DNA of 64,000 nt from Adhaeribacter swui (GTDB lineage Bacteria; Bacteroidota; Bacteroidia; Cytophagales; Hymenobacteraceae), in NCBI RefSeq assembly GCF_014217805.1, contig NZ_CP055156.1:2486585-2550584 (forward strand), given 5' to 3'. Position numbers and translations under genes: made by a program. Numbering within the stretch: position 1 is the stretch's first letter; the number at the start of each line of letters is the position of its first letter. Shown in pieces: positions 973-37,073 of this stretch. The notes beneath the pieces are model-generated. The model did not search any database, had not been told where the DNA came from, and was given only the letters and a program-made list of their open reading frames with translations.

Positions 973-1053
973 CTGGCCCTTAAGGTACTTATGTTGGCGC
1001 ATAAACCCCTTAAAAAGGCATGGTATTATAATAAAAATCTTAAGCCCAAATTT

Positions 1054-4518: not shown

Positions 4519-4545
4519 TACCGGGAATTTAAAAAATTTAAAAAA

Positions 4546-16763: not shown

Positions 16764-18917
16764 TTATTTCGGTAACACTTTCATAGTGCCTTGCATGCTG
16801 TAAAAATGGCCCGGTACCGAACATTCGTAGGTGTAGTTACCTGGTTTTTCGGGGGCAGTAAAGTAAATGGTTTCGGTGGATTGCGGCTGCAGCAGGTTGG
16901 TGTGGTACAATACTTTGTTAGTATTAGGGATGTAGTTTTTCTGCTGACCTTCCAAACCTAATTTCATGGCCAGATTACCTACTTCTATAGCTGTGCCGGG
17001 CAGTACCACCACAAAGTTGTGCAGCATATCGTCGTCGTTCTGGAACACCACCCGGATTTTGCTGCCGGCTTTCACCTGAAACTGCGATGGCTCAAATTTA
17101 AGCCCAGGTTTGGTGCCCAGATTAATGGTATAATCGGCATTGCCGTTCCAGTCGGCGGGCATTTCGGTTACTCGTTTTGCAGCCATTTTGGTACCAGCCA
17201 CATTGCTGGATGCCGTTGAAGTAGTGGTGCTTGATTTTTTGTTATTTTTCGCACTTCCGGCCGCTTTACCAGCCGAGGCCATCATGGCGGCGTGGTCGTG
17301 CATGGGAGATGCAGCTTTGGCAATGTTTAATTTTGTGCCATCCGGTAAGTTGTTCAGGGTGTAATAACCAACCGTGTGCAGCAAAGGCTGGCCCGACTTG
17401 GAGCGCACGCCATCAGAATTAATTTCGTGAATATAGCCTAAACGCAGATCATCTACTACCAGGCGCGCTTTCAGACCATCTTCCGAAACTACAACGCCTC
17501 TTATTGGGTTTTCTTTGTTATTAATAACCGGGCTGCCGTAAGATGCCTGGTATTTATAGCTAAAGCCGGTTACTTTGTAAGAAGCTACATTAGAAGCGGT
17601 AGCCTTATCAACGGGTTGGGTAAATTCAATCTCGAAACCATCCGGCATGGCGTGAATGGTCTTCATTTCGAAAGGAGTTCGGCCGGTCCAGACTAAGCGC
17701 TGCAAGCTGTATAATTCTTTACCCGTCGAAGACCAACCCCGGCTGGTCATGCCCACAAACATAGACCCGTCGTGGCCCCAAACCTGCCGCAAAATTCCCG
17801 AAGAAAATCCTTCCCGGAAACCGAAGGCTACCCCCTGGTACTCGCCTTTTACTTTTTCCAGGTCTACGCGCATAATTTTGCTTTGACCCTGGTCGCCCAC
17901 AAAAATCTGGTTCTGGAACGGACCAAATTTACCGTTGGTATTATCGTTTAAGAAAGCCGAAGTAGAAATACCAAAAATGCCGTGCGGCATCCAGATGGCT
18001 GGGGCTTTTAATTCTGGTACCCGTTTAGCCACATCGTACAAAGGTTCGCCAGTATTGGGTATATCTTGCGGCTTTAATTTTAAAGGGGAGCCTGGTAAAC
18101 CCGACCAGTTTAAACTTTCGGCATTACCCAGAAAATCGCCTTTTTCTACATGCGAGATCCGGCCAGAACCTACCCAATCGCCCTGGTTTTCGGTGTAGAA
18201 AAAGTCGCCGGCAGCATTAAAGCCGTAACCAGCCGGGGAACGCATACCGGCGGCAAACGGGGTCATTTTACCATCGGGGGTAATTTCTAAAGTCCAGCCG
18301 CGCCAGGGCACCAAACTTACTCCGTGCCCTAAGCTATTGCTCCAGCCTACGTTTAGCGTTACCAGCATATTGCCGTTAGGTAAAAAAGTAGGTCCGTAGG
18401 AATATTCGTGATAATTACCGGACAATGGCCAGGAATAAACTTTATCGTAGCTGTCGGCTTTGCCGTCGCCATCGGCATCGCGTAACCGGGTAACCTCACT
18501 GCGTTGCGTTACATAAATATCACCGTCTTTGTAAGCCAGGCCAAGTGGTTCGTGCAAGCCGTACGCATAGCGCTTATAAGTTGGTCGTTCCTCGCCCGAA
18601 ATAGTTGGGTTAGATACAATCCAGACTTCGCCGCGACGGGTACAAATCGCCAGACTGCCATCCGGTAATGTAGCCATGCCGCCTACCTCCAGAATAACAT
18701 CTTCCGGTACTGGCAGCGAAATAAGGGTATAATAATCATCTTCTTTGGCCGGTGCCGCTTCTACTTTGGTTAAGCCTTTAGGTGCCGGGGCCGGTTGTTT
18801 ACTGCCGGTAATTGGGTTTATCTTGGTTTGAGCAAAACCGGTATTTTGTAAAAATAAAAGCCCGGCGGCTACCAGCGTAGCTTTGGCAATATGATTTATT
18901 TTAAAAATTTTATTCAT
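16764..18917 (-). CDS. Exported propeller dehydrogenase-like protein fused to an azurin-type cupredoxin
   Basis: 717 aa with a signal peptide ending GFAQ. Residues about 65-540 form a beta-propeller of the sorbosone-dehydrogenase-like/DUF7133 kind (GGMATLPDGSLAICTRRGEVW, GLAYKDGDIYV, AGMRSPAGYGF, FVGDQGQSKIMRV). After a low-complexity Lys/Ser/Ala linker (about 545-585) comes a cupredoxin domain. Copper ligands are readable: His633 (MLHNF), Cys699, His704 and Met708 in YECSVPGHFYSM, with spacing identical to azurin (C+5 His, C+9 Met). The likely role is periplasmic oxidation of a sugar or alcohol with electrons passed to copper. It is the second gene after the DUF1080/PA14 gene (123-bp gap) and is a paralogue of the protein at 26809-28938, which carries heme c instead. 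Confidence 0.88.
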   Translation of the reverse strand: MNKIFKINHIAKATLVAAGLLFLQNTGFAQTKINPITGSKQPAPAPKGLTKVEAAPAKEDDYYTLISLPVPEDVILEVGGMATLPDGSLAICTRRGEVWIVSNPTISGEERPTYKRYAYGLHEPLGLAYKDGDIYVTQRSEVTRLRDADGDGKADSYDKVYSWPLSGNYHEYSYGPTFLPNGNMLVTLNVGWSNSLGHGVSLVPWRGWTLEITPDGKMTPFAAGMRSPAGYGFNAAGDFFYTENQGDWVGSGRISHVEKGDFLGNAESLNWSGLPGSPLKLKPQDIPNTGEPLYDVAKRVPELKAPAIWMPHGIFGISTSAFLNDNTNGKFGPFQNQIFVGDQGQSKIMRVDLEKVKGEYQGVAFGFREGFSSGILRQVWGHDGSMFVGMTSRGWSSTGKELYSLQRLVWTGRTPFEMKTIHAMPDGFEIEFTQPVDKATASNVASYKVTGFSYKYQASYGSPVINNKENPIRGVVVSEDGLKARLVVDDLRLGYIHEINSDGVRSKSGQPLLHTVGYYTLNNLPDGTKLNIAKAASPMHDHAAMMASAGKAAGSAKNNKKSSTTTSTASSNVAGTKMAAKRVTEMPADWNGNADYTINLGTKPGLKFEPSQFQVKAGSKIRVVFQNDDDMLHNFVVVLPGTAIEVGNLAMKLGLEGQQKNYIPNTNKVLYHTNLLQPQSTETIYFTAPEKPGNYTYECSVPGHFYSMQGTMKVLPK

Positions 18918-19040
18918 GATGTTTTAATCTTTTCAAACTCCTGTACAATAGAGGATAATCCGAGGAGTTGTTTTGCCTAAAATGAGCAGTTATTTAAAAA
19001 TTCCAGAGTGGACTATCGTCTATCGACCAGGAACTAGGCC

Positions 19041-20939
19041 TTACCACACAATAGCATATTTCACTACTCCCGATGCATCTTTGGCTTTTACAGGTAAGAG
19101 CATTTCTTCGGTATTTTGGGCCGTTTTTCGAATAACGGGTTTTTCTTTTTTATCTAATTGCACAAAATATTCTTTGTCGCCAATCGCGTACAAGCCATTC
19201 GGCATTTTGGTAATGGTACTTCCTTCAGCCACGCGGCACCAGATTGCTTGGGTTTCCTGACCCGGGGTTACGGTAAACGTGTGGGTTAATTTTCGGCCAT
19301 TGTCTTCAGGTTCTACGGTTTCGCGTACGTTGGCATTACCCAGGTTATATTTAAAAATAGGCCGACCTGCTTTGCTTACATCGTAACCTAAGTTGTTGTA
19401 GGCGGCGTTGGAATCAGGCCAGGCGGCATTCTGGTCAGCTAAAAAGGTAAGTGATGGTTTAGCCGGGAACTGCGTTACGCTACCCATAGGTACTTCTAAC
19501 TGGGTCTCGCCCCGGCCGTACCACATGGGAGTAGTTTCCAGGAAATCGCCCCGCCAAACCTGCAGGAACTGGCCCCGGCTTAAATCAATGGCGTAATTAG
19601 CGCCACCGGGTTCGCCTACGGATATCACGTGGGTTCTTTTTTTACCTAAATGCTCCAGAAAACCCCTCTGCATCATCGGCTCATCGGCTACTTTAACGGT
19701 GATAGCGCCTACCGGGTCCATTACTTTTAAGGGGGTTTTTAAGGCGGTTAAAGCCACCCCTGGTCCGCTTACAGTAAGGGTAATATCGTTGCGACGGGCA
19801 TACCAATACGACGAACTTTTAAAATAAGCTAAATTTAAGGGATACGTACCGGCTGCCAGATTTACCGTGCCGGAAGCCACGCCGGTTTTCCCGGTTACGG
19901 TTAACACTTTTTTATCTCCAATAGTTAGTTCGCCGGCCCCGTTGATGTAATTGGGGTTGGTGTCCATTGGAATCCAGGCTAGATTTAAGTTGAAATTGTA
20001 GTCGCCGGAAGTAGGCACCTGGATCGTACCGGTAATTTTACCGGCAAACTGGTCGCGGGTAGCGGGAGCCAAATGCGCCAACACATCAATATCCATTTCG
20101 GATTTAGGCGCATTGGTGTTGAAATCCGATAAGGCTTTGATGTTGTCGTAAGACGTTAATTTTAAATCGATCAGCTTAACTTCTTCGGTGCCATACGCCT
20201 GGTATTTGATATTGCGGATAGCTACTGCCCCGTGGTCGCCTTGAATCATTAAGGGCCCTAAAGGTTTTTCGTCTTCAAAAGCAGCGGCCCGGGTAGGTCC
20301 GGTTACTTCAATATTTTTTTGTACTAAAACCCCGTTTTGGTACACTTCTAAAAACCGGGCATTTTCAATTTTTTGACCTTGCGCATTAAACCGCGGTGCC
20401 CGGAAAACTATTTTGTAATGCTGCCACAAACCGGGCGCTTTGCTTACATTTACCAACGGCGGATGCCCTTCGTAGCCTTCCCGACCGGAACCGCGTTTTT
20501 CGTCCCAGCGCTGGTAAATAGCCCCCGCATCCGAATACTTTGGATCGGTTTCGCCCCAGGAATCAAACATCTGCACTTCGTACCGACCTTGCAAATACAC
20601 CCCAGCATTAGAACCTTTGGCCATCATAAAGTCTAGTTCCAACTCGATGTCGCCGTGCTCCATGGTGGTAAATAAATGGCCATTATTGCTTTTGCCCAGC
20701 GTATTTACCAGGATACCAGTACCGGCCGTGATTTTGCCGTTGCCGCCTTTCATGGGATCAAAAAATACATCTTTTGCCTGCTTCCAGTTATTGGTTACCG
20801 GCTTAAAAGCACTAAGATCGGTTAAGGGGATGGGCGTTAAAGTAGCAGAAGGCGCATTGGCTTGAGCAATTCCTTCGGGCTGCCATAAAAAAGAAAATAG
20901 GGCTGCCAGCAGGAATCTTGATTTAATTTTAAATTTCAT
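19041..20939 (-). CDS. Exported DUF1080 (3-keto-disaccharide hydrolase family) protein with PA14-like insert
   Basis: 632 aa. The start is ATG 20939, giving signal peptide MKFKIKSRFLLAALFSFL; an upstream TTG at 20960 is in frame but less likely. Residues about 40-245 are a DUF1080 concanavalin-like domain (PLTDLSAFKPV, DIELELDFMMAKGSNAGVYLQGRYEVQMFDSW, GLWQHYKIVFRAPRF, GDHGAVAIRNIKY). A segment at about 255-405 resembles a PA14/carbohydrate-binding fold. The C-terminal about 210 residues (VWRGDFLETTPMWYGRG) match the paralogue at 28959-30434, which lacks the insert. Pfam names the DUF1080 family 3-keto-disaccharide hydrolase; cleavage of oxidised glycosides is inferred from that. It heads a pair with the cupredoxin-fused dehydrogenase. 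Confidence 0.85.
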   Translation of the reverse strand: MKFKIKSRFLLAALFSFLWQPEGIAQANAPSATLTPIPLTDLSAFKPVTNNWKQAKDVFFDPMKGGNGKITAGTGILVNTLGKSNNGHLFTTMEHGDIELELDFMMAKGSNAGVYLQGRYEVQMFDSWGETDPKYSDAGAIYQRWDEKRGSGREGYEGHPPLVNVSKAPGLWQHYKIVFRAPRFNAQGQKIENARFLEVYQNGVLVQKNIEVTGPTRAAAFEDEKPLGPLMIQGDHGAVAIRNIKYQAYGTEEVKLIDLKLTSYDNIKALSDFNTNAPKSEMDIDVLAHLAPATRDQFAGKITGTIQVPTSGDYNFNLNLAWIPMDTNPNYINGAGELTIGDKKVLTVTGKTGVASGTVNLAAGTYPLNLAYFKSSSYWYARRNDITLTVSGPGVALTALKTPLKVMDPVGAITVKVADEPMMQRGFLEHLGKKRTHVISVGEPGGANYAIDLSRGQFLQVWRGDFLETTPMWYGRGETQLEVPMGSVTQFPAKPSLTFLADQNAAWPDSNAAYNNLGYDVSKAGRPIFKYNLGNANVRETVEPEDNGRKLTHTFTVTPGQETQAIWCRVAEGSTITKMPNGLYAIGDKEYFVQLDKKEKPVIRKTAQNTEEMLLPVKAKDASGVVKYAIVW

Positions 20940-21027
20940 GCGATAAAATAAAGAAAACAAAATAGTTAATAGAACAAATATAGTTATTGTTTTTAGAACA
21001 ATAAGATGTGAAAATTTTAAAATTTAT

Positions 21028-21169
21028 CGTTTGTATAGCCGCTGCATCAGCTTAATTACACTATGGCGCGGAAGTTACTTCCGTGCCTTTCAGATTGATG
21101 TTAGTGCCTTGCCTTACTTGCAAGAAATTAAAAATTCTCGTTCGCATAGCTGCTGTACTAGCTCTGATT
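21028..21169 (+). repeat. Imperfect direct repeat CGTTnGnATAGCnGCTG
   Basis: Two copies, 21028-21057 and 21139-21169, share CGTT-G-ATAGC-GCTG-A--AGCT---ATT at a spacing of 111 bp, each preceded by an AT-rich run (AAAATTTA / AAAAATTCT). No coding potential was seen. Confidence 0.55.
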
Positions 21170-21201
21170 GCTAGTTGAAGTTGTTTCATTGCTCAGGTTC
21201 T

Positions 21202-21281
21202 GTTCTTTTTGTCTTGACACAAAAAGAACCAAAAAAGTCAAGACGATTTTAAACTCGCTGCCGCTCAAACACAAAATCGTC
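21202..21281. repeat. Three overlapping inverted repeats
   Basis: Stem 1: GTTCTTTTTGT (21202-21212) with ACAAAAAGAAC (21219-21229). Stem 2: GTCTTGAC (21211-21218) with GTCAAGAC (21237-21244). Stem 3: GACGATTTT (21242-21250) with AAAATCGTC (21273-21281). All are perfect. Stems 1 and 2 exclude each other, as do stems 2 and 3 at their overlap. Confidence 0.8.
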
Positions 21282-21377
21282 AGGTTCTGCACTTCGCTTA
21301 AGTTGTTCGTTTCATAGTTCACATTGAAATTATACCTATTTATCCGGTATTCTAATGTCTAGTATCTAATATCCAAC

Positions 21378-24300
21378 TTATTGATTAAAAGTAATGGCGG
21401 ATAAAGATGCTAGTCTGTCGTTGGGTTTTTCGCGTTTTACCAGAATGAAGTAAAGGTCGTGCTTGCCGGTAATGGGTTTATTCAGGGTGCCGGTTACTTG
21501 CTTCGGGCCTTTGTTGTTACCGTTTGCTTTAAAGGCAGTTCGGCTAATTACTGGTCCGGCGAAGGATCCAATGCGCAGTTCTATTTCGCCATCTTTGTCC
21601 GGAGCCGAATAATCGTAAGTAAATCCTTTAATGCCCGTTAAATCAATATTTTTTAATAAAACGAAAGATTTATGGTTGCCGGTACTCAAACTATTGCCAA
21701 ACCGGCCAAAACCAGTGTAAGCATCGGCATCTATGGCTTGTACTTTCGCATTTCGGAGGGTTACTACTTCGGTGCCGGTAAGCGGCCCTACGGCTTTACC
21801 GCCTTTATCGGTGTAAGTAGCTAGTAAGGTATACTTGCCGCGGGGTTCGTCTGCTTTGTGTTCTTTAAAGGTAAGGGTGCCTTTAGCTGGTAAAGTAGTT
21901 TTTTGCTTTTTAGCGTCGGTGAGCGAGAAAATGTATTTTACCATTTCCTGCGCATCTTTTTCGGCAATTTGCGGGTGTGCGCTCATTACGTGTTCGGTGC
22001 CCCAGTTACCGCCGCCCCCATTGATAATTTTCTTGACTAACATATTTACGGCGCCGCTTTGCCCTTTGTAGCGGGTAGCCACGGCCATAAACGCCGGACC
22101 TACCGAAACTTTATCTACGGTGTGGCAAGCTTTACAATCGCTATTGGCTACGAGGGTTTTACCTAAAGAATTAGATTCTACGGTAGTAACTACCTGGTGC
22201 CCTGCTTCGGGTTCTTTGTTTATGGCGCTAGGTTGCGGATTGTAATCGAAGTACACCTTTATTTTTTTAGGATCAATGGTTTTGTCTTCTTTATCCTTTA
22301 CCTGCACATTGTAAGCAAAAGGCTTATTCTCCCAATAAAAAGATTTATTGCCAGTAGTGACAATATTTACCTCGGGCAAGGCATTTCCTACTTTTATGGT
22401 TACCGTATCGGTGGCAGATGCGCCGGAATTATCGGTAACTTTTAAAATGGCTGCGTAAATACCGGGTTGTGTGTAGGTATAAGTAGGGTTCGGTGAGGTT
22501 GAGCCCACGGTTTTACCATCGAATAACCACTGGTAGGTTAACTTGTCGTTATCGTCGAGGTCGCGGGTGCCGCGGCTGGCAAATTTAACGCGCAAAGGAG
22601 CTGAGCCAGTTACTTCGGTTAATTGCGGGCCCATGCGTGGGTCGGAGGTTAAGTAAGAACGCGCACTGGCTTGGGCCATGGCAGCGGAGTCGGTGGCGTA
22701 AGCTTTGGCAATGGGGGCCCGGTTGTTGGTGTTGTACTCAATTTTTACGAGGCGGGCATCTTCGTTATCTGCGCCGTAAACCGAACCGTATTCCAGCATA
22801 TACATCACGCCATCTTTCCCAAAAGCCAAATCAATCGGACGCCGGAAATCGCCGTTTAAAGTCATAAAAGGTTCGGCGCGCACAAAGTTTTCGTTGGCAT
22901 CGAACCGTAGAGCCATTACCCAGTTGCGCATCCAGTCCATCACGAACAAAGTGCCATCGTAATATTCCGGAAATTTAAATTTAGAAGTGGAGTTCTTGTC
23001 GTAAGTATAAAACTCGCCGGCCATAGCGCTACGGCCACCAATGCCTAACTCCGGAAACTCTTTAGAAGCATCGTATGGGTACCAGATCATAGCCGGTACG
23101 GCGGGTGGCAATTGATTTAAACCGGTATTATTAGGCGAGTTGTTAATAGGGGCTTGGGCATTGTAAAGCGGGCCCGCTTTTTTTGTGGCAAAATCCCAGT
23201 CGGCATACGCTATGTTATTACCTACAAAATACGGCCAGCCGTAATTACCCGGTTTTTTAGCCTGGTTAAACTCATCGTACCCTTTGGGGCCACGTAAGCT
23301 ATCTACGCCCGCATCCGGACCAATTTCGCCCCAGTACAATACCGACGTTTTGGGATTTAAAGCAATGCGGTACGGGTTACGGCAGCCCATTACGTAAATT
23401 TCGGGTTTGGTTTTAGGCGTGCCTTTCGGGAATAAGTTGCCATCCGGAATAGTGTACGAACCATCCGGCTCCGGGTGGATGCGTAAAATCTTTCCTTTGA
23501 AATCGTTGGTGTTGGAAGCAGAGCGCTGGGCATCTTCGCTGAAATGTTCCGGTTCCGGGCGTTCGTCGATAGGTGCATACCCTAAGGATGGGAACGGCGT
23601 GGTACCATCGCCGGTTGATAAATACAAGTTACCTTCTTTGTCCCAGGCTAATGATCCTCCGTGGTGAGCGCCGCTTTTTTCCTGTACCGGTACCTGCAAC
23701 AACACTTTTTCCGAAGCAGCATCCAGGGTGTTATCGGGTTTTAAAGTAAACCGCGACAGGTTAAATAAATAAGGTTCTTCGGCTTTAGGTGGGCTATAAT
23801 ATACGTATAGCTGTTTGTTCGTGGCAAAATTAGGATCTAAGGTTAAGCCGATTAATCCGGTACCGCCTTTTTGTACTACTTCAAATTGATGTACTTGAGA
23901 GAGTTGTTTGGTTTGCGGGTCGTACATGGATAATTTACCCGCAAACTCCGTGAAAAATACCCGGCCATCCGGTGCTACGGCTAACTCCATGGGTACCGCC
24001 AAGTCATTTACCAGTATGGTTTTCACAAAACGGTTTTCTTCCGGCACAACTACGGCGTACGATTTACTGTAATCCAAGGGTTTGCCGCTGCCCATCGCGT
24101 ATTTAATGCCGCCTAATAAATGATTCAAAAATAAAGGGTCGCTGTAGCTTTCGGGAGTGTGGCCGCTGCCGGTATAAAAGGCCCGGCCGCCGTCGAACTC
24201 GTGGTACCACATAATTGGGTGGTTGGCACCGTTCGTACCGCCTTCGTAGGAGTTTTCGTCGAGAGATGCTAAAACTTTAATGCCAGGGTAAAAAGAACGG

Positions 24301-24866
24301 TAGTTGTACCACTCGTCGGTGCGTTCCCATTTATCGGGCAAACCAGCGGTTGCGGGGTGCGTTTTATCTGTTACTTCCACCGTCGCTTTGCGTTCGCCGG
24401 GTTGCAGCGGGTGGCTCGAAAAATGTGCACCCATTAATTTATCGTACCAGGGCCACTCGTATTCGGTATCGGCCGCCGAGTGAATACCTAAATAACCGCC
24501 GCCTGCCTGAATGTAGCGTTCAAAAGCTGCTTGTTGTTCCGAGTTTAATACGTTGCCGGTAGTACAGTTAAAAATTACCGCCTGATATTGTTTTAAACTA
24601 TCGTCCGTGAAATAATTGGCATTTCTAGTGGTATCTACCCGCCAGTTATTTTCTACCCCCATTTGATGAATGGCTTTGTTAGCGTACGGGATCGAAGTGT
24701 GCTTCCAGCCCATCGTCCGGGAGAATACCAGTACCCGTGGGGTTGCTTTGGCCTGATTGGTAGTTTGCTGTTGCTTCCCGTTTAAACAAGAGTACAATCC
24801 CAGGCTGGCGGCGAACACGCCCAAGCAACCAAGCCCAAGCTTAGAAGTGAGTTTAGAAAGATTCAT
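21378..24866 (-). CDS. ThuA - sugar dehydrogenase - PKD - cytochrome c - CBM-like fusion lipoprotein
   Basis: 1162-residue exported multidomain protein with a signal ending LGLYSC (lipobox-like, Cys 27). Rough domains: ThuA-like glutamine-amidotransferase fold (43-255; GGYLGIHSAADTEY), glucose/sorbosone dehydrogenase propeller (about 280-700; PMELAVAPDGRVFFTEF, GLIGLTLDPNF, GSLAWDKEGNLYLSTGD), PKD domain (about 745-830; YQWLFDGKTVGS, YTQPGIYAAILKVTDNSG), cytochrome c (C911-K-A-C914-H915, likely Met in EHVMSAH) and a C-terminal beta-sandwich (about 1030-1160; GFTYDYSAPDKDGEIELRIG) like a CBM6. Rhizobial ThuA takes part in trehalose use through 3-keto intermediates, which fits the neighbouring DUF1080 genes. 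It appears to be its own transcription unit, bounded by a terminator upstream and repeats downstream. Confidence 0.9.
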   Translation of the reverse strand: MNLSKLTSKLGLGCLGVFAASLGLYSCLNGKQQQTTNQAKATPRVLVFSRTMGWKHTSIPYANKAIHQMGVENNWRVDTTRNANYFTDDSLKQYQAVIFNCTTGNVLNSEQQAAFERYIQAGGGYLGIHSAADTEYEWPWYDKLMGAHFSSHPLQPGERKATVEVTDKTHPATAGLPDKWERTDEWYNYRSFYPGIKVLASLDENSYEGGTNGANHPIMWYHEFDGGRAFYTGSGHTPESYSDPLFLNHLLGGIKYAMGSGKPLDYSKSYAVVVPEENRFVKTILVNDLAVPMELAVAPDGRVFFTEFAGKLSMYDPQTKQLSQVHQFEVVQKGGTGLIGLTLDPNFATNKQLYVYYSPPKAEEPYLFNLSRFTLKPDNTLDAASEKVLLQVPVQEKSGAHHGGSLAWDKEGNLYLSTGDGTTPFPSLGYAPIDERPEPEHFSEDAQRSASNTNDFKGKILRIHPEPDGSYTIPDGNLFPKGTPKTKPEIYVMGCRNPYRIALNPKTSVLYWGEIGPDAGVDSLRGPKGYDEFNQAKKPGNYGWPYFVGNNIAYADWDFATKKAGPLYNAQAPINNSPNNTGLNQLPPAVPAMIWYPYDASKEFPELGIGGRSAMAGEFYTYDKNSTSKFKFPEYYDGTLFVMDWMRNWVMALRFDANENFVRAEPFMTLNGDFRRPIDLAFGKDGVMYMLEYGSVYGADNEDARLVKIEYNTNNRAPIAKAYATDSAAMAQASARSYLTSDPRMGPQLTEVTGSAPLRVKFASRGTRDLDDNDKLTYQWLFDGKTVGSTSPNPTYTYTQPGIYAAILKVTDNSGASATDTVTIKVGNALPEVNIVTTGNKSFYWENKPFAYNVQVKDKEDKTIDPKKIKVYFDYNPQPSAINKEPEAGHQVVTTVESNSLGKTLVANSDCKACHTVDKVSVGPAFMAVATRYKGQSGAVNMLVKKIINGGGGNWGTEHVMSAHPQIAEKDAQEMVKYIFSLTDAKKQKTTLPAKGTLTFKEHKADEPRGKYTLLATYTDKGGKAVGPLTGTEVVTLRNAKVQAIDADAYTGFGRFGNSLSTGNHKSFVLLKNIDLTGIKGFTYDYSAPDKDGEIELRIGSFAGPVISRTAFKANGNNKGPKQVTGTLNKPITGKHDLYFILVKREKPNDRLASLSAITFNQ

Positions 24867-25202
24867 GCGGGTGAGGGTATTTTATATACACGGTTTTGTA
24901 GTTTTTAAATGTACTATTTTTTTAAAAATAATCTACCCTTAGAATTTTTTAAATTTTTCATTTTCTGGCGCTGCATAAAGGCAGGTAACTAACAGTTTAT
25001 TAGTTTAAGAAGTACAATGCTTTAATTTTTTAAAAATATTTAAACCGCTAATCTCGAAAAGTAAAAAGCCGCTCCTGGTGGGGAGCGGCTTTTGCGAAAT
25101 TATATTGTTCTAATTTCTTACGCTGTTTCTTAATCTGGTAAAAAAGGCTTTCCGAAAAGTTTTAAATTGTTTTGCCGGTTTAAGAAGTGTTGGCTAAACG
25201 GT
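24867..25202. other. Intergenic region with a terminator
   Basis: 336 bp without a gene. It holds the hairpin at 25064-25093 and AT-rich DNA with runs of TTTTTTAAA upstream of the ThuA fusion gene, presumably its promoter. Confidence 0.6.
25064..25093. terminator. Bidirectional intrinsic terminator
   Basis: AAAAGCCGCTCC (25064-25075) pairs perfectly with GGAGCGGCTTTT (25082-25093), downstream of the outer-membrane barrel gene on the minus strand. Confidence 0.9.
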
Positions 25203-25880
25203 CTATTTTTTTCTTTTCCGTTCTAGCAGGTACCCGATGCAGGCTGTAATGGCTTGGTTTGGCGAAGTAGCAGGGGTTAATACATTGCCAAGGCCATAAG
25301 CAAAACGGGCCTCGAACTGAAAGTTTCCTACAGCCGTTTTTTGTAAATATCCCAGTCCAAAAGCCAGTCCGTATTGTAAGCGGTTGGGTATAAGTTTAGT
25401 TTGGTTCGTATTGGCAGTTTCTGGCAAAAGAAGGCTATCGCGTTTAGAAATAAGAAAGGAAATGTAAGGGCCCAGGTTTAACAAAAATGCCCCGTTTTTC
25501 TTCCCGATTTGGATGTGCGTAAATACCGGTACTTCCAGGTAGTTAAATCGCCGCGAATCGCCATTTTCGGATAAAGTCCAGCCGGCTTGCAGGTAATTTA
25601 ATTCCACCTGAATGCCGGCATATGGTTGCGCAAAATGATTTAAAATTAGCCCTGCGGTAATTGATCTAGTAAAGTCTTGGTTGATAGGAGGGGAGAAGCT
25701 GATTTGTGAAAGATTGTAGCCTGCTTTAAACCCTACAGAAGTAGAAGGAATAAACTTTTTTTGAATAACTACGGTGTCCTGGATTTGAGCCGCCGACTCG
25801 TTTTTTAAAAAAGCAGTTAAAAGAATTAGTACGAACCAACACTTCTTACAAATCAGCAACAGACGAAATACATGAACCAT
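25203..25880 (-). CDS. Outer-membrane beta-barrel (PorT-like) protein
   Basis: 225-residue protein with an N-terminal hydrophobic signal (LLLICKKCWFVLILLTAFL) ending near SAAQ. The mature part alternates polar and hydrophobic residues in strands typical of small outer-membrane barrels: VGFKAGYNLSQISFSP, GIQVELNYLQAGWTLSE, FNYLEVPVFTHIQIG, LLNLGPYISFLIS, YGLAFGLGYLQ and FQFEARFAYGLGNV. This matches the PorT/outer_membrane_beta-barrel families. It is isolated between two terminators. A role in the island (porin or structural) is only inferred from position. Confidence 0.85.
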   Translation of the reverse strand: MVHVFRLLLICKKCWFVLILLTAFLKNESAAQIQDTVVIQKKFIPSTSVGFKAGYNLSQISFSPPINQDFTRSITAGLILNHFAQPYAGIQVELNYLQAGWTLSENGDSRRFNYLEVPVFTHIQIGKKNGAFLLNLGPYISFLISKRDSLLLPETANTNQTKLIPNRLQYGLAFGLGYLQKTAVGNFQFEARFAYGLGNVLTPATSPNQAITACIGYLLERKRKK

Positions 25881-25915
25881 GAGGAACCTTTAATTTTTTA
25901 AAGATGCACAAAAAT

Positions 25916-25946
25916 AAAAATGCCTAAGGTGGTCTTAGGCATTTTT
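25916..25946. terminator. Bidirectional intrinsic terminator
   Basis: AAAAATGCCTAAG (25916-25928) pairs with CTTAGGCATTTTT (25934-25946), 27 bases after the DUF1080 stop at 25974 and 35 bases before the barrel start. Confidence 0.9.
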
Positions 25947-25973
25947 TTTAAAATTCTTAAAAATGTTTCTGAA

Positions 25974-26657
25974 TTATAATTCTTTAATTTTTACGTTCCG
26001 GAAGTAGATCGGTGCCCCGGCGTGCTTGCCTTGCAAACCCACGTAACCTTTCAGAGGCAAAGTAGCTAATGGTTTGTTCAACCAGGCCGGAATATCAGAA
26101 CCATCAGGGTTTTTCTTAGCATCGGTCCACTGGTTCATGTCGATTTCGTTTACCAGTTCACCGTTCAAGATTACCCAGATTTTTTTGCCTTTGCAGGTAA
26201 CGGTATAGTGGTTCCATTCACCGGGCTTTTTTACGTTGCTTTTCTTAGGAGCCAAACGGCCAAAAATGGCGCCGCACTGCCAAGTTTTTGGAGCTTTCGA
26301 CCATTCTTCGCTGTAGTCGTCGGCAATCTGAATTTCAACACTGTTGGGTATCCAGTTTTCGATATCGCTGGCGTGTACTACTACGCCGCTGTTGGTACCA
26401 TTGGCGGTTTTAAATTCCAGGTCCAGAATAAAATCGTTGTATTCTTTATTCGACCAGATGCTGTTATCCTCAGTAGCCGTTAACACCCCGTTTTCAAATG
26501 ACCAAACATTATCGGGCTTAATGGCATTGGTTAAATCCGGTTGAAACAAATCGCGCCAACCGGCTTTTTTGGTGTTGGGGTGGGTTTTAGTGCCTTCCTG
26601 GGCTTGCGCAAAAAAGAAAATATTTAAAAAAAATAAAACGGAAATTAGCTTTTTCAT
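25974..26657 (-). CDS. Exported single-domain DUF1080 (3-keto-disaccharide hydrolase family) protein
   Basis: 227 aa with signal peptide MKKLISVLFFLNIFFFAQAQ. Nearly the whole mature protein is one DUF1080 domain: GWRDLFQPDLTN, a WSFENGVLTATEDNSIWS strand pair, FILDLEFKTANGTNSGVVVHA, NSVEIQIADDY, GEWNHYTVTCKGKKIWVILNG and GYVGLQGKHAGAPIYFRNVKIKEL. This is the canonical minimal form of the family. Catalysis on 3-keto glycosides is the family-level assignment. It is a monocistronic unit between two terminators, and is the third DUF1080 copy in about 11 kb. Confidence 0.9.
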   Translation of the reverse strand: MKKLISVLFFLNIFFFAQAQEGTKTHPNTKKAGWRDLFQPDLTNAIKPDNVWSFENGVLTATEDNSIWSNKEYNDFILDLEFKTANGTNSGVVVHASDIENWIPNSVEIQIADDYSEEWSKAPKTWQCGAIFGRLAPKKSNVKKPGEWNHYTVTCKGKKIWVILNGELVNEIDMNQWTDAKKNPDGSDIPAWLNKPLATLPLKGYVGLQGKHAGAPIYFRNVKIKEL

Positions 26658-26744
26658 TAGGTGGTAATCTTTGAATAAAATGTAAAGAGATATTCATCTA
26701 AAACCTTAAGGCCAAGAACCAAATTTTAGATGGTGTTACAAAAA

Positions 26745-26781
26745 GAAAGCATGAAAGAATATTGCTTTCTTTCATGCTTTC
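26745..26781. terminator. Terminator of the DUF1080/cytochrome c pair
   Basis: GAAAGCATGAAAG (26745-26757) pairs with CTTTCATGCTTTC (26769-26781), 27 bases after the stop at 26809 on the minus strand. Confidence 0.85.
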
Positions 26782-26808
26782 TGATAATCAGGTTAATACA
26801 AAACTGAA

Positions 26809-28938
26809 TTAGTTATTTGGATCATCGGGGTTTTTAACGGCAGCTTTCGAAGCTGATTCGTTGCTACCACCATCCAAAGAGTTAATCCAGGCGGCAATTT
26901 TTAAGGCATCACCCCGCGAAACTTGCGGCATAGGCGGCATTTCGGTGGCGTACTCCGGCCAGTTTTGTGGCTCTGGATTGTGAATTAACTTCACGATGCG
27001 CTCGTTGGTATATTTGCGTTTCGCTACATCTTTATAAGCCGGACCAACCTGGCGTTTATCAGGGTTATGGCAAGCCAAGCAGTTGTTTTTCTGTAAAATA
27101 GGCTTAATCTGGTCGTAGGTAAGTACTTGCTGAGCAGGCACACTGCCTTTGGCAACAATACCGGTACCTTTGGCACTGCCTTTTGCTCCACCTTTAGCGG
27201 CGGTTTTGTTATTGTTTTTTAAACCGCTTTCTACTACTGCTGATTGTAATTTAAAGTTAAACCGGTCTTCCATTATTTCTGTTGGAACCGACTTAATAGC
27301 TACAGATTTACCAGAATTTTTAGTGCTGGCCTGGGCCAAAGGTAATTTAGCGCCATCCGGAATGTTGTTCAGGGTGTAAAACGCGTTCGTGTGTAACAGC
27401 GGCGAAGATTTCTCTTTATCCCGTATACCTTCTAAAGAGATGTTGTGTACGTAGGCTTCCCGTAAACCATCCACAATAATGCGGGCTTTCATGCCATCTT
27501 CCGATACTTTAACGCCTTTTACTTTTGGATTCTCGATGTTTACCGGTGGGCTACCATATACCGGGTGGTATTTATAGGTAAAGCTTTCTACGGCGTAAGA
27601 AGCCAAATCTTCGGCAGAGCTACGGTCAACGGGTTTGGTAAATTCAATTTCAAAACCATCGGGCATCGCGCGTACATTCAGCATTTCGAAAGGAACCTGG
27701 TTGTTGTACACTAAACGCTGCAAGCCTTGGTTTTCTTCCCCGGCAGAACCCCAACCGCGGTTGGTTTCACCTACGAACAAAGAGTTATCCGGGCCCCAGG
27801 CCATCCGCATTACGCCAGATTGAAAATCGTTCCGGAACTCGATGGCTGCACCCTGGAATTCGCCTTTTACTTTTTCCAGCATTACCCGCGAAATTTTACT
27901 TTGTCCCTGGTCGCCAACTAACAACTGACCGGCAAACGGGCCGAATGCTCCTTCCGGAATTTTAACGATTTCAGAGTTAGAGATACCCAGAATAGTGTGC
28001 GGCAATACTACGGCTTGTAACTGCAGTTGTGGGAAGTCCTTTTTTAAATCAGCTTTCGTTACAAATTTTTCATTTACTACGTTTTCTGGTTTAATAGCCC
28101 GGTCGTTCGCATCGCGTTTATCACGCGGATCTAATTTGGCGTTAAATTGCTCGGTAGTATATTTTACCGGGGATCCGGGTAAGTTGGTCCATTTTAAACC
28201 AGCAGGGTGGCCTGCAAAAATACCTTTTTTTACGTGCCAAATACCACCAGAACCTACGTATTCGCCTTGGTTATCGGAGTAGAACAACTCACCGTCGATC
28301 ATGCCTAAACCAGCCGGTGAACGCATACCGGTAGCCCAAGGCTCTACTTTACCATCCGGGCTGATTTTTAAAGTCCAGCCGCGCCATGGCACCCGGCTTT
28401 CGCCCCGCCACCATTGCTCGTCGCCGAAGGCCACGTTACCCGTTACGAAAAACGAACCATCCGGCGCAATTTTTGGCCCGAAAGAATACTCGTGGTAGTG
28501 ACCCGATAAAGGCCAGGCGTAAACGGTTTCGAATACATCGGCTTTGCCGTCTTTGTTGGTATCTACTAATTTGGTAAGCTCACCGCGTTGGGCACAGTAA
28601 AGGGCTCCGTCTTTATAAGCTAAACCTAATACTTCGTGTAACCCAGAAGCAAACTTGCGGAAATAAGGCCGGGCGCTGGTGGGGTTTTCCACGATAAAAA
28701 TATCGCCGCGGCGGGTAGAAATACCCAGATCGCCGTTCGGCAACATGGTTAAACCACCTACTTCCAGAATAGTACCTTCGGGAGCAGATACTTTTACAAT
28801 TTTATAAAAATCTTCTTCTTTAGGGGCATTTTGGGCTTGGGCCGAAGAAACACCAGCTAAAGAAAAAGCGCCCAGCAACAACGGCAGGGCCGTGCGGCGC
28901 AAAAATTTGTTTCGGATATATTTACTAGAATATTTCAT
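26809..28938 (-). CDS. Exported propeller dehydrogenase-like protein fused to cytochrome c
   Basis: 709 aa, signal peptide of about 36 residues ending SAQAQ. Residues about 45-540 are the same propeller as in the 16764-18917 protein (GGLTMLPNGDLGISTRRGDIF, GLAYKDGALYCAQRGE, FAGQLLVGDQGQSKISRVMLEKVKGEFQGA), so the two are clear paralogues. The C-terminal about 100 residues are instead a cytochrome c with heme motif C620-L-A-C623-H624, a GPAYKDVAKRK helix and a likely Met ligand in EMPPMPQ. A linker of about 75 residues, rich in Lys, Gly and Ala at its end (GGAKGSAKGTG), joins the parts. It lies 20 bp after the DUF1080 gene at 28959-30434, so the two are cotranscribed and probably work in sequence. 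Confidence 0.9.
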   Translation of the reverse strand: MKYSSKYIRNKFLRRTALPLLLGAFSLAGVSSAQAQNAPKEEDFYKIVKVSAPEGTILEVGGLTMLPNGDLGISTRRGDIFIVENPTSARPYFRKFASGLHEVLGLAYKDGALYCAQRGELTKLVDTNKDGKADVFETVYAWPLSGHYHEYSFGPKIAPDGSFFVTGNVAFGDEQWWRGESRVPWRGWTLKISPDGKVEPWATGMRSPAGLGMIDGELFYSDNQGEYVGSGGIWHVKKGIFAGHPAGLKWTNLPGSPVKYTTEQFNAKLDPRDKRDANDRAIKPENVVNEKFVTKADLKKDFPQLQLQAVVLPHTILGISNSEIVKIPEGAFGPFAGQLLVGDQGQSKISRVMLEKVKGEFQGAAIEFRNDFQSGVMRMAWGPDNSLFVGETNRGWGSAGEENQGLQRLVYNNQVPFEMLNVRAMPDGFEIEFTKPVDRSSAEDLASYAVESFTYKYHPVYGSPPVNIENPKVKGVKVSEDGMKARIIVDGLREAYVHNISLEGIRDKEKSSPLLHTNAFYTLNNIPDGAKLPLAQASTKNSGKSVAIKSVPTEIMEDRFNFKLQSAVVESGLKNNNKTAAKGGAKGSAKGTGIVAKGSVPAQQVLTYDQIKPILQKNNCLACHNPDKRQVGPAYKDVAKRKYTNERIVKLIHNPEPQNWPEYATEMPPMPQVSRGDALKIAAWINSLDGGSNESASKAAVKNPDDPNN

Positions 28939-28958
28939 GAATTCAAAAAATTAAAAAA

Positions 28959-30434
28959 CTAGAACAGGATGGAATAGCCTACTTTTCCTTTTACCGGCAC
29001 TACTAATTCTTTGCGGCCATCGGCATCGCGTACTACTGGTTTTGTTCCTTTAGCATCATCTAAACGCAGGTAATAAGCTTTACCATCTACCACGTAAGCG
29101 CCATTGGATTTATCTTCTTCAATAGAACTACCTTCGGCTAAGCGGGCATATAAATCGCCACCAGCCGGATTTTGCACGGTAATTTCCCGGTGAATTCCTT
29201 GACCATTATCCAGTACCCGGATAGCATCCAATACAGTAGCGCCGTAGATGCGGTAGGTAAAAGTAGGTTGGTCATTTTCGTCGAGAGTATAGCCTTTCGG
29301 ACGGAAGCTGGTGCCGGCACTATCAGCCATCCAGGCAGCTTGCGCTGAACCTAATTTAGCTAAAGCAAACTTGGGCAAACCAAAACGCTGCACCATGCCG
29401 GCAGGGCGCGAAGATCCGTCGCCGCGATCGTGCCACATGGGAGTTGCATCTAAGAAGTTGCCGCGCCACACCTGGATTACAGCACCTTTGTCAAGGTCGT
29501 AGGTATAATGTACTTTTTGCGGACTACCTACCGATACGGCATGTACCACGCGGGTACGCGGCTGGCCCGGAATATCCATAAAGCTGCGCAAAATGGTGTT
29601 GGTGGGGGCTTCTACCAGAATAGGATCTACCGGATTGTTTCTCCGGGAGTTTGCCTGCTCCTGCGGAGCGGCTGGTAAGTTGGAAATAGAGATATTCCGG
29701 AAAGCAATAGCCCCATGATCGCCCTGGAAGCGTAAAGGACCGGTGGCTTTTTCATCGTTCGCTACGGCACCACGGGTTGGGCCCAGTAACTCCAGGTTTT
29801 CGTGAATTAGTACACCATTTAATTCTACGCTCAACATGCGTGCATTTTGGATTTTTTTGCCGCTGCCGTCAAACTTTGGAGCTTGAAACGCTACTTTCAT
29901 GTGCTGCCATAAGCCGGGAGCCCGGCTGGCATTCTGGCGGGGCGGATAACCTTCATAGCCTTTCTGGCCTTCGGGTTTGCTATCGTCCCAACGTTCGTAA
30001 ATTCCTCCGTTATCACTAGCTTTTGGTGTTTTTACGTTCCAGCTATCCAGTAATTGCAGCTCATAACGGCCTTGCAGATAAACTCCGGAATTAGAGCCTT
30101 TGGCCATCATGTAATCAAATTCTAACAGCGCGTCGCCGTGTTCCGCAGTAGTGTATAAATCAGCGCCGTGGTTTTTTTTGTCGGGCAGATTCACCAGTAC
30201 GTTTGTTCCTTTAGAGGTAGACAAGTTGTTGTCTTTACCCAGATTGGCGGATACATCACCCACAATCTGCCAGGTTTTACCTGGGTTTTTAAAAGCAGAA
30301 AGGTCCGTCAGCGGCATAGAGCCGGCCGGACTGGTTGCAGCCGTTTGCGCCTGCAGGTAAAGAGGAGCCAGGAACCCGGCACAAAACAAAGCCGCTTTGT
30401 TCCGCATACTCTTCACTGAAATAGTAATTGTCAT
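28959..30434 (-). CDS. Exported DUF1080 (3-keto-disaccharide hydrolase family) two-domain protein
   Basis: 491 aa. ATG at 30434, with an alternative ATG at 30407 that would begin MRNKAALFCAGFLAPLYLQAQ, a clean signal peptide. Residues about 40-250 are DUF1080 (PLTDLSAFKNPGKTW, ALLEFDYMMAKGSNSGVYLQ, LWQHMKVAFQAPKF, GDHGAIAFRNISI). The C-terminal half (about 285-491; VIQVWRGNFLDATPMWHDRG, YARLAEGSSIEEDKSNGAYVV) matches the C-terminus of the 19041-20939 protein, without the PA14-like insert. It heads a two-gene unit with the cytochrome c dehydrogenase 20 bp downstream and is separated from SusD2 by a terminator. Confidence 0.87.
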   Translation of the reverse strand: MTITISVKSMRNKAALFCAGFLAPLYLQAQTAATSPAGSMPLTDLSAFKNPGKTWQIVGDVSANLGKDNNLSTSKGTNVLVNLPDKKNHGADLYTTAEHGDALLEFDYMMAKGSNSGVYLQGRYELQLLDSWNVKTPKASDNGGIYERWDDSKPEGQKGYEGYPPRQNASRAPGLWQHMKVAFQAPKFDGSGKKIQNARMLSVELNGVLIHENLELLGPTRGAVANDEKATGPLRFQGDHGAIAFRNISISNLPAAPQEQANSRRNNPVDPILVEAPTNTILRSFMDIPGQPRTRVVHAVSVGSPQKVHYTYDLDKGAVIQVWRGNFLDATPMWHDRGDGSSRPAGMVQRFGLPKFALAKLGSAQAAWMADSAGTSFRPKGYTLDENDQPTFTYRIYGATVLDAIRVLDNGQGIHREITVQNPAGGDLYARLAEGSSIEEDKSNGAYVVDGKAYYLRLDDAKGTKPVVRDADGRKELVVPVKGKVGYSILF

Positions 30435-30739: not shown

Positions 30740-32422
30740 CTAGTAACCGTTAGGTTTTAAAAGTGGGTTTGAATTTAATTGTCTTGCCGGAATCGGGAAC
30801 ACTGTTGCATCCTTAGAATCCCGGGCCTTATCCCACCATTCTTCACCAAACCGATCCCAACGAATCAGATCTGTTCTCCGGTGACGTTCGCCTAAGAATT
30901 CGCGACCTAATTCATCCACGAATTCATCATCAGTTAGCTTGCTTAAATTAGCGCTGTAGCTATTAGCCTGCCATTTATCGGCTGGGAAATTACGCTCCCG
31001 CACCTGATCCAATAAAGCAGCGGCACCGGCTTTATCGCCGGCCCGGTATTTCGTTTCGGCTAAAGCGTAGTAAATCTCCGCTAAACGAATTTCGGGAGCA
31101 GAGTTAAACTGAAACAAGTTCTGCGTCATAGACAACCAAGGGAATTTAATAAATCTAACTCCCGAGTTTTCCTCGCCTGTTTCCACGTGAGAGCCTTTAG
31201 CTATGCCAGCTGCACCTTCTGAAAAACGGCCTACCTGGTCTACGTACTTTAAAGGTTTATTATTATACTCTTCGGTACCATTAATTACTTTGGTACTATC
31301 ATAGCCAAACCCTTTTGTTTTATTAAACTCGTATTGCTGACCAATCAGGAAGAAACCATCATAATTAACTCCGGTTGCGGTTGTTCTAAATGGCTGCTTG
31401 CGCTTATCGTCGTTAGAATATTTCTGGTAAGGCTTTCCTAATTTATAAGGATAAAGGTTGCCTTCCAGATCCAACGAAGGAGTTAAGGTAACACCATTCC
31501 AGCCACCCCAGTCATTATCTAAAGAATAGCGGGCCTGGTAGTGCATCATCGCATTATACATCCAGCCAAACTCGTAAATGTTTTTAGCGTGCGGGAATTC
31601 AAAAATATTTTCTGAAGACCGGTAGCCGCCGATACCTGACCGGAACGGACCTCTGTAGTCCGGATCGAGGCTATAGGTGCCATAGGTGCCATCTATAATC
31701 TCTTGGGCATATTGCGCTGCTTCGGTGTACTTAGGAGTACCAATCCACTTCTCAGCATTCATGTACATGCGTACTAAGATAGCCGCTGCCCCAGCTTGGT
31801 CCCAACGACCAACTTTTCCGTTTTTCGGTAAACCTGGTAAAGCTTCTTTTAATTCTTGCTCCATAAATGCAAATACCTCTTGCGGAGTAGATTGGCCAAC
31901 CCGCTCCCCAACCTTGGTAGATATAGGAACACTCCGGAAATAATCAATTAAGAAAGTATAGAACCAGGCCCGTAATACTCTTAATTCACCAATATGCGCT
32001 TTTTTATCTGCTTCAGACAAGCCCATTTTGGAATAATCAAGTTTCTCTAAGTCGGTAATAATTTGGTTACACTGGCCAATACCTTGGTAAGGACCAACCC
32101 AACCACCATTAATATGGTTGTCTTCGGAAGTCCATTCGTGGCGGTGCAAACGCACCCAATCACCACCATCCTGTCCGTGTCTTCCTTTTTGCGCCCAAAC
32201 AAACTGGTCAGCAGTTAATTCAGAAATTAACCAACGGTCTCCATCCCAACCATTCCAATGAGCATGTTCATACGGGCGTGTAACAGCAGCAATAATTGAA
32301 TTTTTATCCTGGTAATAATTCTCTGCGACCAGAACATCAAATGGTTCTTCGTCCAGGTTGGTACAAGCGGGAACTACCGTTGTAAGCGCCAGGGCTAAAG
32401 AAAATATTTTAATTTTATTCAT
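30740..32422 (-). CDS. SusD/RagB-family nutrient-binding lipoprotein (SusD2)
   Basis: Surface glycan-binding partner of the SusC2 gene 39 bp upstream. The start is taken at ATG 32422 because it gives a standard lipoprotein signal (MNKIKIFSLALALTTVVPAC, Cys 20); an ATG at 32437 and a TTG at 32449 are also in frame. 560 aa, at the long end for SusD proteins. Family features: the SusD-like N-terminal TPR region (GELRVLRAWFYTFLIDYFRSVPI) and the C-terminal block IRLAEIYYALAETKYRAGD, ALLDQVRERNF, then LGREFLGERHRRTDLIRWDRFGE. The protein is Trp- and Tyr-rich, as expected for sugar stacking. Confidence 0.94.
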   Translation of the reverse strand: MNKIKIFSLALALTTVVPACTNLDEEPFDVLVAENYYQDKNSIIAAVTRPYEHAHWNGWDGDRWLISELTADQFVWAQKGRHGQDGGDWVRLHRHEWTSEDNHINGGWVGPYQGIGQCNQIITDLEKLDYSKMGLSEADKKAHIGELRVLRAWFYTFLIDYFRSVPISTKVGERVGQSTPQEVFAFMEQELKEALPGLPKNGKVGRWDQAGAAAILVRMYMNAEKWIGTPKYTEAAQYAQEIIDGTYGTYSLDPDYRGPFRSGIGGYRSSENIFEFPHAKNIYEFGWMYNAMMHYQARYSLDNDWGGWNGVTLTPSLDLEGNLYPYKLGKPYQKYSNDDKRKQPFRTTATGVNYDGFFLIGQQYEFNKTKGFGYDSTKVINGTEEYNNKPLKYVDQVGRFSEGAAGIAKGSHVETGEENSGVRFIKFPWLSMTQNLFQFNSAPEIRLAEIYYALAETKYRAGDKAGAAALLDQVRERNFPADKWQANSYSANLSKLTDDEFVDELGREFLGERHRRTDLIRWDRFGEEWWDKARDSKDATVFPIPARQLNSNPLLKPNGY

Positions 32423-32461
32423 TTTGATTAAATACATAAAATTGGTCAAACTCGATTAAAC

Positions 32462-36897: not shown

Positions 36898-37073
36898 TGC
36901 CGGTATTTAGCGTTTCATATCCATGACACGCCAGGTATCGGTTTACCGCCACTCTGCCGAAGAAAATTTTTTAAATTTTTTAAATTTGATTACCAACTTG
37001 CCCGCAATCAGGCTAATAAATTTAAGAGGTAAGAAATAATATAGTTGTTTTTGGACTCAAAAAATTAAAATTT

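Follow-up and report, generated by a model that had tools for sequence, protein, structure and literature searches.

Recurrent exchange of predicted copper-type and heme-type carriers on one propeller protein family, in an old modular system found twice in a locus of Adhaeribacter swui

We analyzed a 64 kb stretch of the Adhaeribacter swui genome (hereafter the window, in whose numbering all positions are given) that holds two gene pairs, each consisting of a DUF1080 gene followed by a gene for a propeller protein (20939-16764 and 30434-26809). A sequence-only reading of the window had described both pairs, and we confirmed their open reading frames (ORFs), coordinates and order. One propeller protein ends in a predicted copper carrier and the other in a predicted heme carrier, and this exchange proved to be real and recurrent on one protein family, in an old modular system. 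The pairs and their parts are as follows.

16764 to 18917, minus strand: P0001, propeller protein with a cupredoxin tail, 717 amino acids (ORF; Pfam Copper-bind; DUF7133 just below its cut-off).
17328 to 18752, minus strand: propeller of P0001, residues 56-530, GSDH-like fold (Foldseek matches 2ism, 3a9g and 3das; tree).
17181 to 17312, minus strand: low-confidence stretch of P0001, residues 536-579, read as a flexible linker (predicted local distance difference test (pLDDT) below 50).
16767 to 17147, minus strand: auracyanin/azurin-type cupredoxin of P0001, residues 591-717, with H633, C699, H704 and M708 (auracyanin A profile match).
19041 to 20939, minus strand: P0003, DUF1080 partner of the copper propeller, 632 amino acids, with DUF1080 at residues 43-245, a weak PA14-like stretch at 292-393 (below the cut-off) and a C-terminal domain at 419-632 (ORF, Pfam, fold search, profile comparison).
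26809 to 28938, minus strand: P0002, propeller protein with a cytochrome c tail, 709 amino acids (ORF; Pfam Cytochrom_C).
27343 to 28824, minus strand: propeller of P0002, residues 39-532 (propeller alignment, tree).
26866 to 27129, minus strand: cytochrome c domain of P0002, residues 604-691, with C620, C623 and H624 (Pfam, motif).
28959 to 30434, minus strand: P0004, DUF1080 partner of the heme propeller, 491 amino acids, with DUF1080 at residues 67-250, a C-terminal domain at 278-491 and no PA14 match (ORF, Pfam, profile comparison).

The two propeller proteins were 47% identical over 575 columns in BLASTP and 54% identical in the propeller alignment, and BLASTP gave no alignment between their cupredoxin and cytochrome c parts. 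P0001 matched Pfam Copper-bind (PF00127) at 36.6 bits (cut-off 21.2), and its tail matched the auracyanin A profile with an E-value of 1.4e-15. Against the NCBIfam azurin equivalog, P0001 scored 29 with a cut-off of 105.1, indicating that the tail is not azurin itself. The cupredoxin ligands named in the sequence-only reading (His633, Cys699, His704 and Met708) were numbered correctly; their spacing, H-x65-C-x4-H-x3-M, is that of the azurin ligands, as that reading had held. Exactly this spacing occurred in 55 of the 71 copper tails compared. P0002 matched Pfam Cytochrom_C (PF00034) at 26.2 bits (cut-off 21.3), and the heme site given for it (C620xxC623H624) was likewise correct, with CxxCH at residue 620. 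A simple Met pattern followed CxxCH in 52 of 61 heme tails, and the other nine had other Met-rich stretches. The tail of P0001 is predicted to be a type-1 copper domain and that of P0002 a c-type heme domain. In the model of P0001 (propeller and cupredoxin; mean pLDDT 78, predicted template modeling score (pTM) 0.70), the low-confidence junction between the two domains looks as a flexible tether would be expected to look.

The proposal that the redox module had been exchanged on one kind of protein was supported by the tails across the propeller tree. After removal of identical propellers and of those cut by a locus end, 146 distinct propellers remained. A copper tail was present in 74 and a heme tail in 62, whereas 10 had no tail at the C-terminus. 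Tails were assigned by motif; the pattern marked L043 and L097 as carrying both, but on reading, their tails contained a cytochrome only and were counted as heme. With these pattern artefacts set aside by eye, none of the 146 propellers carried both tails. Thinning of four near-copies gave a 142-row tree, on which the copper and heme states needed three changes. With the ten tail-less rows as the root, three changes were required if the tailed group began with copper and five if it began with heme; i.e., parsimony favored a change from copper to heme, the reverse of the direction in the sequence-only reading.

All trees were quick searches with support from the Shimodaira-Hasegawa-like approximate likelihood ratio test (SH-aLRT) only, and the approximately unbiased (AU) tests used 91 rows without the four long outgroup rows. 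Forcing all heme rows, a group defined by its label, into one clade was rejected (AU p = 0.00076), as was forcing the L144/L145 propellers into the main heme clade (AU p = 8e-5). The L144/L145 cytochromes were 50% and 44% identical to those of the main heme clade; with the propellers apart and the cytochromes close, either the tail was transferred across lineages or the two tails share a source. The L121/L123 cytochromes were 19% identical to those of the main heme clade, whose members average 62%, and are best read as a separate acquisition. L144/L145 and L121/L123 were picked as test groups after the tree had been seen. On these data, copper probably came first in the tailed group, with at least two and probably three later replacements by heme; two of the switches are firm on the tree, and the third rests on the tail. 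The distances between copper tails followed those between their propellers (Spearman 0.62; 0 of 500 permutations). A donor search for the heme tail of P0002 gave best other matches of 36-40% identity, none of which stood out. Our literature searches, limited to open-licence PMC papers, showed no paper on copper/heme tail exchange in such proteins.

Both partners matched 3keto-disac_hyd (PF06439, formerly DUF1080), P0003 at 101.3 bits and P0004 at 90.3 bits (cut-off 26.8), and they were 52% identical to each other over 247 residues and 35% identical over 234 residues near the C-terminus. The two pairs are homologous, as the sequence-only reading had supposed. The model of P0003 (mean pLDDT 82, pTM 0.52) best matched 4qhz, a putative glycosyl hydrolase, and its other fold matches were 8v31 (3-keto-2-hydroxy-glucal hydratase AL2) and 9fbe (3-keto-glycoside eliminase/hydratase). 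In PMC9007349, DUF1080 proteins (BT2157 and CCNA_01705) are linked to 3-keto-glycoside breakdown by genetics. Of 136 propellers, 128 had a homologue of the DUF1080 proteins of the window immediately upstream, counted by BLAST with gaps of -260 to 400 bases and with some partners cut by the locus end. Distances between partners agreed with those between propellers (Spearman 0.75 over 105 complete pairs; 0 of 300 permutations). The conserved C-terminal domain of both partners (19044-19685 and 28962-29603, minus strand) had no Pfam match of its own, and its relatives in L133, L134 and L136 showed a weak DUF6797 match under the cut-off.

The tail-less outgroup is not carrier-free; the carrier sits N-terminally or in the neighboring gene. 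All six short tail-less propellers (497-538 amino acids) follow a gene for an auracyanin-like cupredoxin, which passed the Pfam cut-off in five of the six neighbor genes (L132 was under it) and whose ligands aligned in all six. As their second part, these cupredoxin genes encode a homologue of the C-terminal domain seen in the DUF1080 partners (hhalign probability 99.1, E 8.5e-19; the best of 20 shuffled controls had probability 9.3 and E 0.0035). In each of the four long tail-less relatives (966-1226 amino acids), a single chain runs from an N-terminal stretch through cytochrome c and PA14 to the propeller; the N-terminal stretch resembled the same partner domain (probability 88.8, E 2.5e-6; best of 20 shuffles, probability 2.0, E 0.024). 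Two of the four, L135 (3821-7489) and L136 (3423-7100), also contain the DUF1080 domain and are natural fusions of cytochrome c, PA14, propeller and DUF1080 in one protein. The same modules thus occur in three arrangements: one chain, two chains with the carrier on the partner, and two chains with the carrier on the propeller. Module content, homology, tree, recurrent exchange and permuted modules were all established by computation. Moreover, the single-chain relatives tie an oxidoreductase-like propeller to a 3-keto-glycoside enzyme family and point to a possible source of 3-keto sugars.

The minus strand of the locus reads, from 5' to 3', sigma factor and anti-sigma factor, SusC, SusD, DUF1080 protein, heme-tailed propeller, small DUF1080 protein, outer-membrane barrel protein, ThuA-GSDH-PKD-cytochrome c protein, second DUF1080 protein, cupredoxin-tailed propeller and esterase. 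The small DUF1080 protein, the barrel protein and the ThuA-GSDH-PKD-cytochrome c protein, all between the pairs, were absent from the sequence-only reading. The neighbors that we delimited are listed here.

21378 to 24866, minus strand: ThuA-GSDH-PKD-cytochrome c-CBM6-like protein, between both pairs (Pfam).
25974 to 26657, minus strand: small single-domain DUF1080 protein, between both pairs (Pfam).
30740 to 35836, minus strand: SusD (30740-32449) and SusC (32462-35836), preceding the heme pair (names assigned by eye).
35923 to 37646, minus strand: FecR anti-sigma factor (35923-36897) and sigma factor (37074-37646) (Pfam).

The FecR/sigma factor pair is a possible switch of the locus. The cytochrome of the 21378-24866 protein was about 33-37% identical to that of the neighboring heme propeller. 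A further GSDH propeller with a cytochrome c tail lies at 7765-9354 on the plus strand (GSDH 241 bits), downstream of a second SusCD pair (991-5997), bringing the window to four propeller-type proteins with built-in carriers. Elsewhere in the genome, we observed three more cupredoxin-ended proteins of 1165, 1212 and 1089 amino acids (L179:3042-6536, L180:2886-6521 and L181:2271-5537). They are ThuA-DUF7133 or GDSL-DUF7133-HEAT proteins, the copper counterpart of an architecture that usually goes by the name PVC-type heme-binding. With these three large DUF7133 proteins and 18 DUF1080 domain matches in the genome, the building blocks are common in A. swui.

The two pairs had been described as a duplicated cassette, and we aligned the propeller parts and built a tree. 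As a local event, the duplication did not hold; the propellers are homologous but are not each other's close relatives, which in a narrow sense counts against that description, and they fall in two separate clades, each with closer relatives elsewhere. The P0001 propeller was 93% identical to its counterpart in genus-mate G530 and 86% in A. aerolatus, and the P0002 propeller 97% and 90%, respectively. In the 142-propeller tree, P0001 stood among copper proteins of Adhaeribacter, Spirosoma and Algoriphagus, and P0002 lay deep inside a 57-row heme clade. Among named genomes, a scan gave 35 loci related to the copper propeller, 57-86% identical, from Adhaeribacter, Spirosoma, Pontibacter and Algoriphagus, among others. 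At E up to 1e-30, 37 of the 395 phylum genomes searched contained a relative of the heme propeller, and at 1e-50, 149 of the 391 order genomes. Of the matches from these heme-side searches and from the copper-side search that listed 117 genomes, only part was fetched, and only four candidates were scored in most of the genomes that had more, so that copies may be missed.

Co-occurrence of the two clades was counted in 136 of the 149 heme-side genomes and 107 of the 117 copper-side genomes, the sides being assigned by list and identity and not by the carrier or tree placement of each row. Genomes with low-scoring, fragmented, unlisted or unclear-side rows were left out (on the copper side G397, G428, G436, G439, G462, G473, G482, G501, G502 and G540). 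Both clades were listed in 105 genomes, on one contig in 31 and on different draft contigs in 74. Among the 31, only A. swui and G530 held both within 50 kb, with start-to-start distances of 10 kb and 14 kb; the next closest genome had 56 kb, and the clades were at least 55 kb apart in the remaining 29. Copper and heme propellers were on different contigs in A. aerolatus and A. rhizoryzae and about 1.2 Mb apart in A. aquaticus. In A. aerolatus (L182), the heme pair is preceded by SusC and SusD proteins that share 83% and 81% identity with their window counterparts, and the contig stops shortly after the pair. In A. aerolatus and A. rhizoryzae (L007 and L008), a ThuA-GSDH-cytochrome protein, homologous to the 21378-24866 protein, precedes the copper pair. 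Because the pairs are apart in these three species, the window looks like a junction of two loci; our best reading is that the two units became neighbors in the lineage of A. swui and G530.

When the propeller sequence was searched against solved structures, the only matches were short repeats, almost all of them in designed propellers, and a fold search was needed. The best Protein Data Bank matches of the P0001 model in Foldseek were sugar dehydrogenases of the pyrroloquinoline quinone (PQQ) type (2ism, 3a9g and 3das) and soluble glucose dehydrogenase, with template modeling scores by target of 0.52-0.73 and 12-19% sequence identity to the PQQ-type sugar dehydrogenases. H170, N189, R226, S227, N244 and D342 were identical in 132 of 132 propellers, and R377 in 129. 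The invariant His and the Arg-Ser-Pro motif presumably lie near the positions of the GSDH His and Arg-Asn; the GSDH signature appears to be only partly kept. Pfam GSDH matched at E up to 0.01 in 6 of 29 propellers and DUF7133 (PF23500) in all 29. For the two window proteins, DUF7133 scored 25.1 and 25.0 bits, below its cut-off of 27, and TIGR02604 scored 28.6 and 23.1 bits with a cut-off of 122.2. The Pfam scan gave no HEAT match in P0001 or P0002.

We infer the catalysis, the electron path, the substrate and the docking role of the C-terminal domain as follows. Each pair would encode a two-protein periplasmic unit; both propeller proteins are presumably periplasmic, as their N-termini look like signal peptides by eye. 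The GSDH-fold propeller would take electrons from a sugar or glycoside and pass them over the flexible linker to its own tail, type-1 copper or c-type heme, which would hand them on towards respiration. The DUF1080 partner would cleave or hydrate the C3-oxidized glycoside, and its C-terminal domain probably holds both proteins together. We lean towards this explanation as a whole, a periplasmic oxidoreductase of the GSDH fold that releases electrons through its own copper or heme tail and works with a 3-keto-glycoside-cleaving partner, together with the carrier history above, and give it somewhat better than even chances. A bolder version is tentative, and we would expect it to fail more readily than to hold: the pairs may belong to an undescribed family of modular oxidative-deglycosylation machines of Bacteroidota, built from five modules (propeller oxidoreductase, exchangeable copper or heme carrier, DUF1080 lyase/hydrolase, PA14 and a conserved docking domain), in which the propeller makes the 3-keto-glycoside and DUF1080 cleaves it. 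If true, this would be a further kind of glycoside 3-dehydrogenase besides the LacA type and the Gfo/Idh/MocA type.

Several observations weigh against our preferred explanation. On the carrier history, the tail-less outgroup is mixed in carrier (six with copper in the next gene, four with heme in the chain) and so does not fix the first state. One origin of L121/L123 and the main heme clade was not rejected by the propeller tree (AU p = 0.198), and the cupredoxin tree mixed both propeller clades (six changes, three of them forced by starred branches), which suggests that copper tails may also have been exchanged. Eight of the 136 propellers had no DUF1080 neighbor (L097, L098, L106, L120-L123 and L148). 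On the chemistry, the copper propeller scored 15.8 bits against the Pfam GSDH cut-off of 25; its fold matches also included the non-enzymatic hedgehog-interacting protein 3ho4 and, for the whole chain, nitrous oxide reductases; and K347, a possible match to a PQQ contact, was kept in 89 of 132 propellers. A search for pqqC, run without a positive control and leaving the other pqq genes aside, gave no match in the A. swui genome, and the same search for pqqC alone, again without a positive control, gave none over the cut-off in 296 sampled genomes (23 had weak matches). PQQ, if used, would therefore probably have to be taken up, and its synthesis by the host is unlikely. Finally, according to PMC5342196, purified Lac161_ORF7, a TIGR02604 propeller with HEAT repeats and cytochrome c, hydrolyzed lactose with a Km of 1.8 mM.

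Among the alternatives, the strongest holds that each unit acts on a different glycoside and that the carrier is a frozen accident of its lineage, either tail being good enough. The recurrent exchange without an obvious pattern and the different genes upstream of the pairs (ThuA-GSDH before the copper pair in L007 and L008, SusCD before the heme pair in L182) are in its favor, although the clades often occur together, which may point to joint use; we consider it a serious contender that falls short of even odds. Alternatively, the carriers may be substitutes on the same substrate, the copper form serving under ample copper and the heme form under copper shortage, as plastocyanin and cytochrome c6 do. 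This would suit the absence of propellers with both tails and the finding that 105 of the 107 placed copper-side genomes are also heme-side (105 of 117 counting the ten left out). However, the co-occurrence lists follow propeller similarity and not carrier, and the PA14-like stretch differs between the partners, as do the neighborhoods, which fits different substrates at least as well; we regard metal substitution as unlikely. It is more improbable still that the propeller acts chiefly as a glycoside hydrolase or lyase, with the redox tail serving an auxiliary step. The lactose hydrolysis by Lac161_ORF7, as reported in PMC5342196, speaks for this; however, the presumed kinship with that protein rests on the weak TIGR02604 scores (28.6 and 23.1 against 122.2 bits), and the presence of a carrier within or next to each propeller examined favors redox chemistry. 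A recent tandem duplication at this locus, followed by replacement of one heme tail with a cupredoxin, is hardly credible: the same gene order and the adjacent, 54% identical propellers would fit, but the far closer relatives of each propeller in G530 and A. aerolatus, the separation of at least 55 kb in 29 of 31 genomes and the copper-first parsimony reject it, and a rescue would need a grossly wrong rooting plus very unequal rates.

Compared with known systems, the preferred explanation, of a GSDH-fold oxidoreductase with a built-in carrier and a DUF1080 partner, resembles in its proposed chemistry the LacABC lactose 3-dehydrogenase, which is three-part and membrane-bound and for which PMC9007349 proposes periplasmic oxidation followed by DUF1080 cleavage. 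The partners of the window share PF06439 with the DUF1080 3-keto-glycoside proteins (BT2157 and CCNA_01705 in PMC9007349; AL2, 8v31) and match 8v31 and 9fbe in fold, but they add a C-terminal domain and, in one of them, a PA14-like stretch, and they are paired with a propeller instead of LacABC. No GMC-type (LacA) match was found in the 35 of 40 window ORFs of at least 150 amino acids that were scanned with Pfam.

The propellers share their fold with the PQQ-dependent aldose sugar and soluble glucose dehydrogenases (2ism, 3a9g, 3das and 1cq1) but differ in their identity of 12-19%, in scores under the Pfam GSDH cut-off and in contacts that are partly kept, and they add the fused carrier and the DUF1080 partner. 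Like the PVC-type heme-binding CxxCH proteins (TIGR02604/DUF7133), they have a DUF7133-like propeller, and the heme form also has a cytochrome c at its C-terminus; unlike them, they score far below the TIGR02604 cut-off and slightly below the DUF7133 one, P0001 and P0002 give no HEAT match, and the carrier is often copper. The cupredoxin has the ligand set and spacing of auracyanin and azurin but is the tail of a larger protein instead of a free carrier. The best-known cases of replacement between copper and heme are free carriers, such as plastocyanin and cytochrome c6, a copper and a heme protein that do one job in photosynthesis, whereas the carriers described here are covalent tails of one protein family. 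The swap can therefore be tested with much held constant, i.e., the same propeller and the same kind of partner with a different metal, and it provides a natural test of the extent to which copper and iron are interchangeable within one enzyme.

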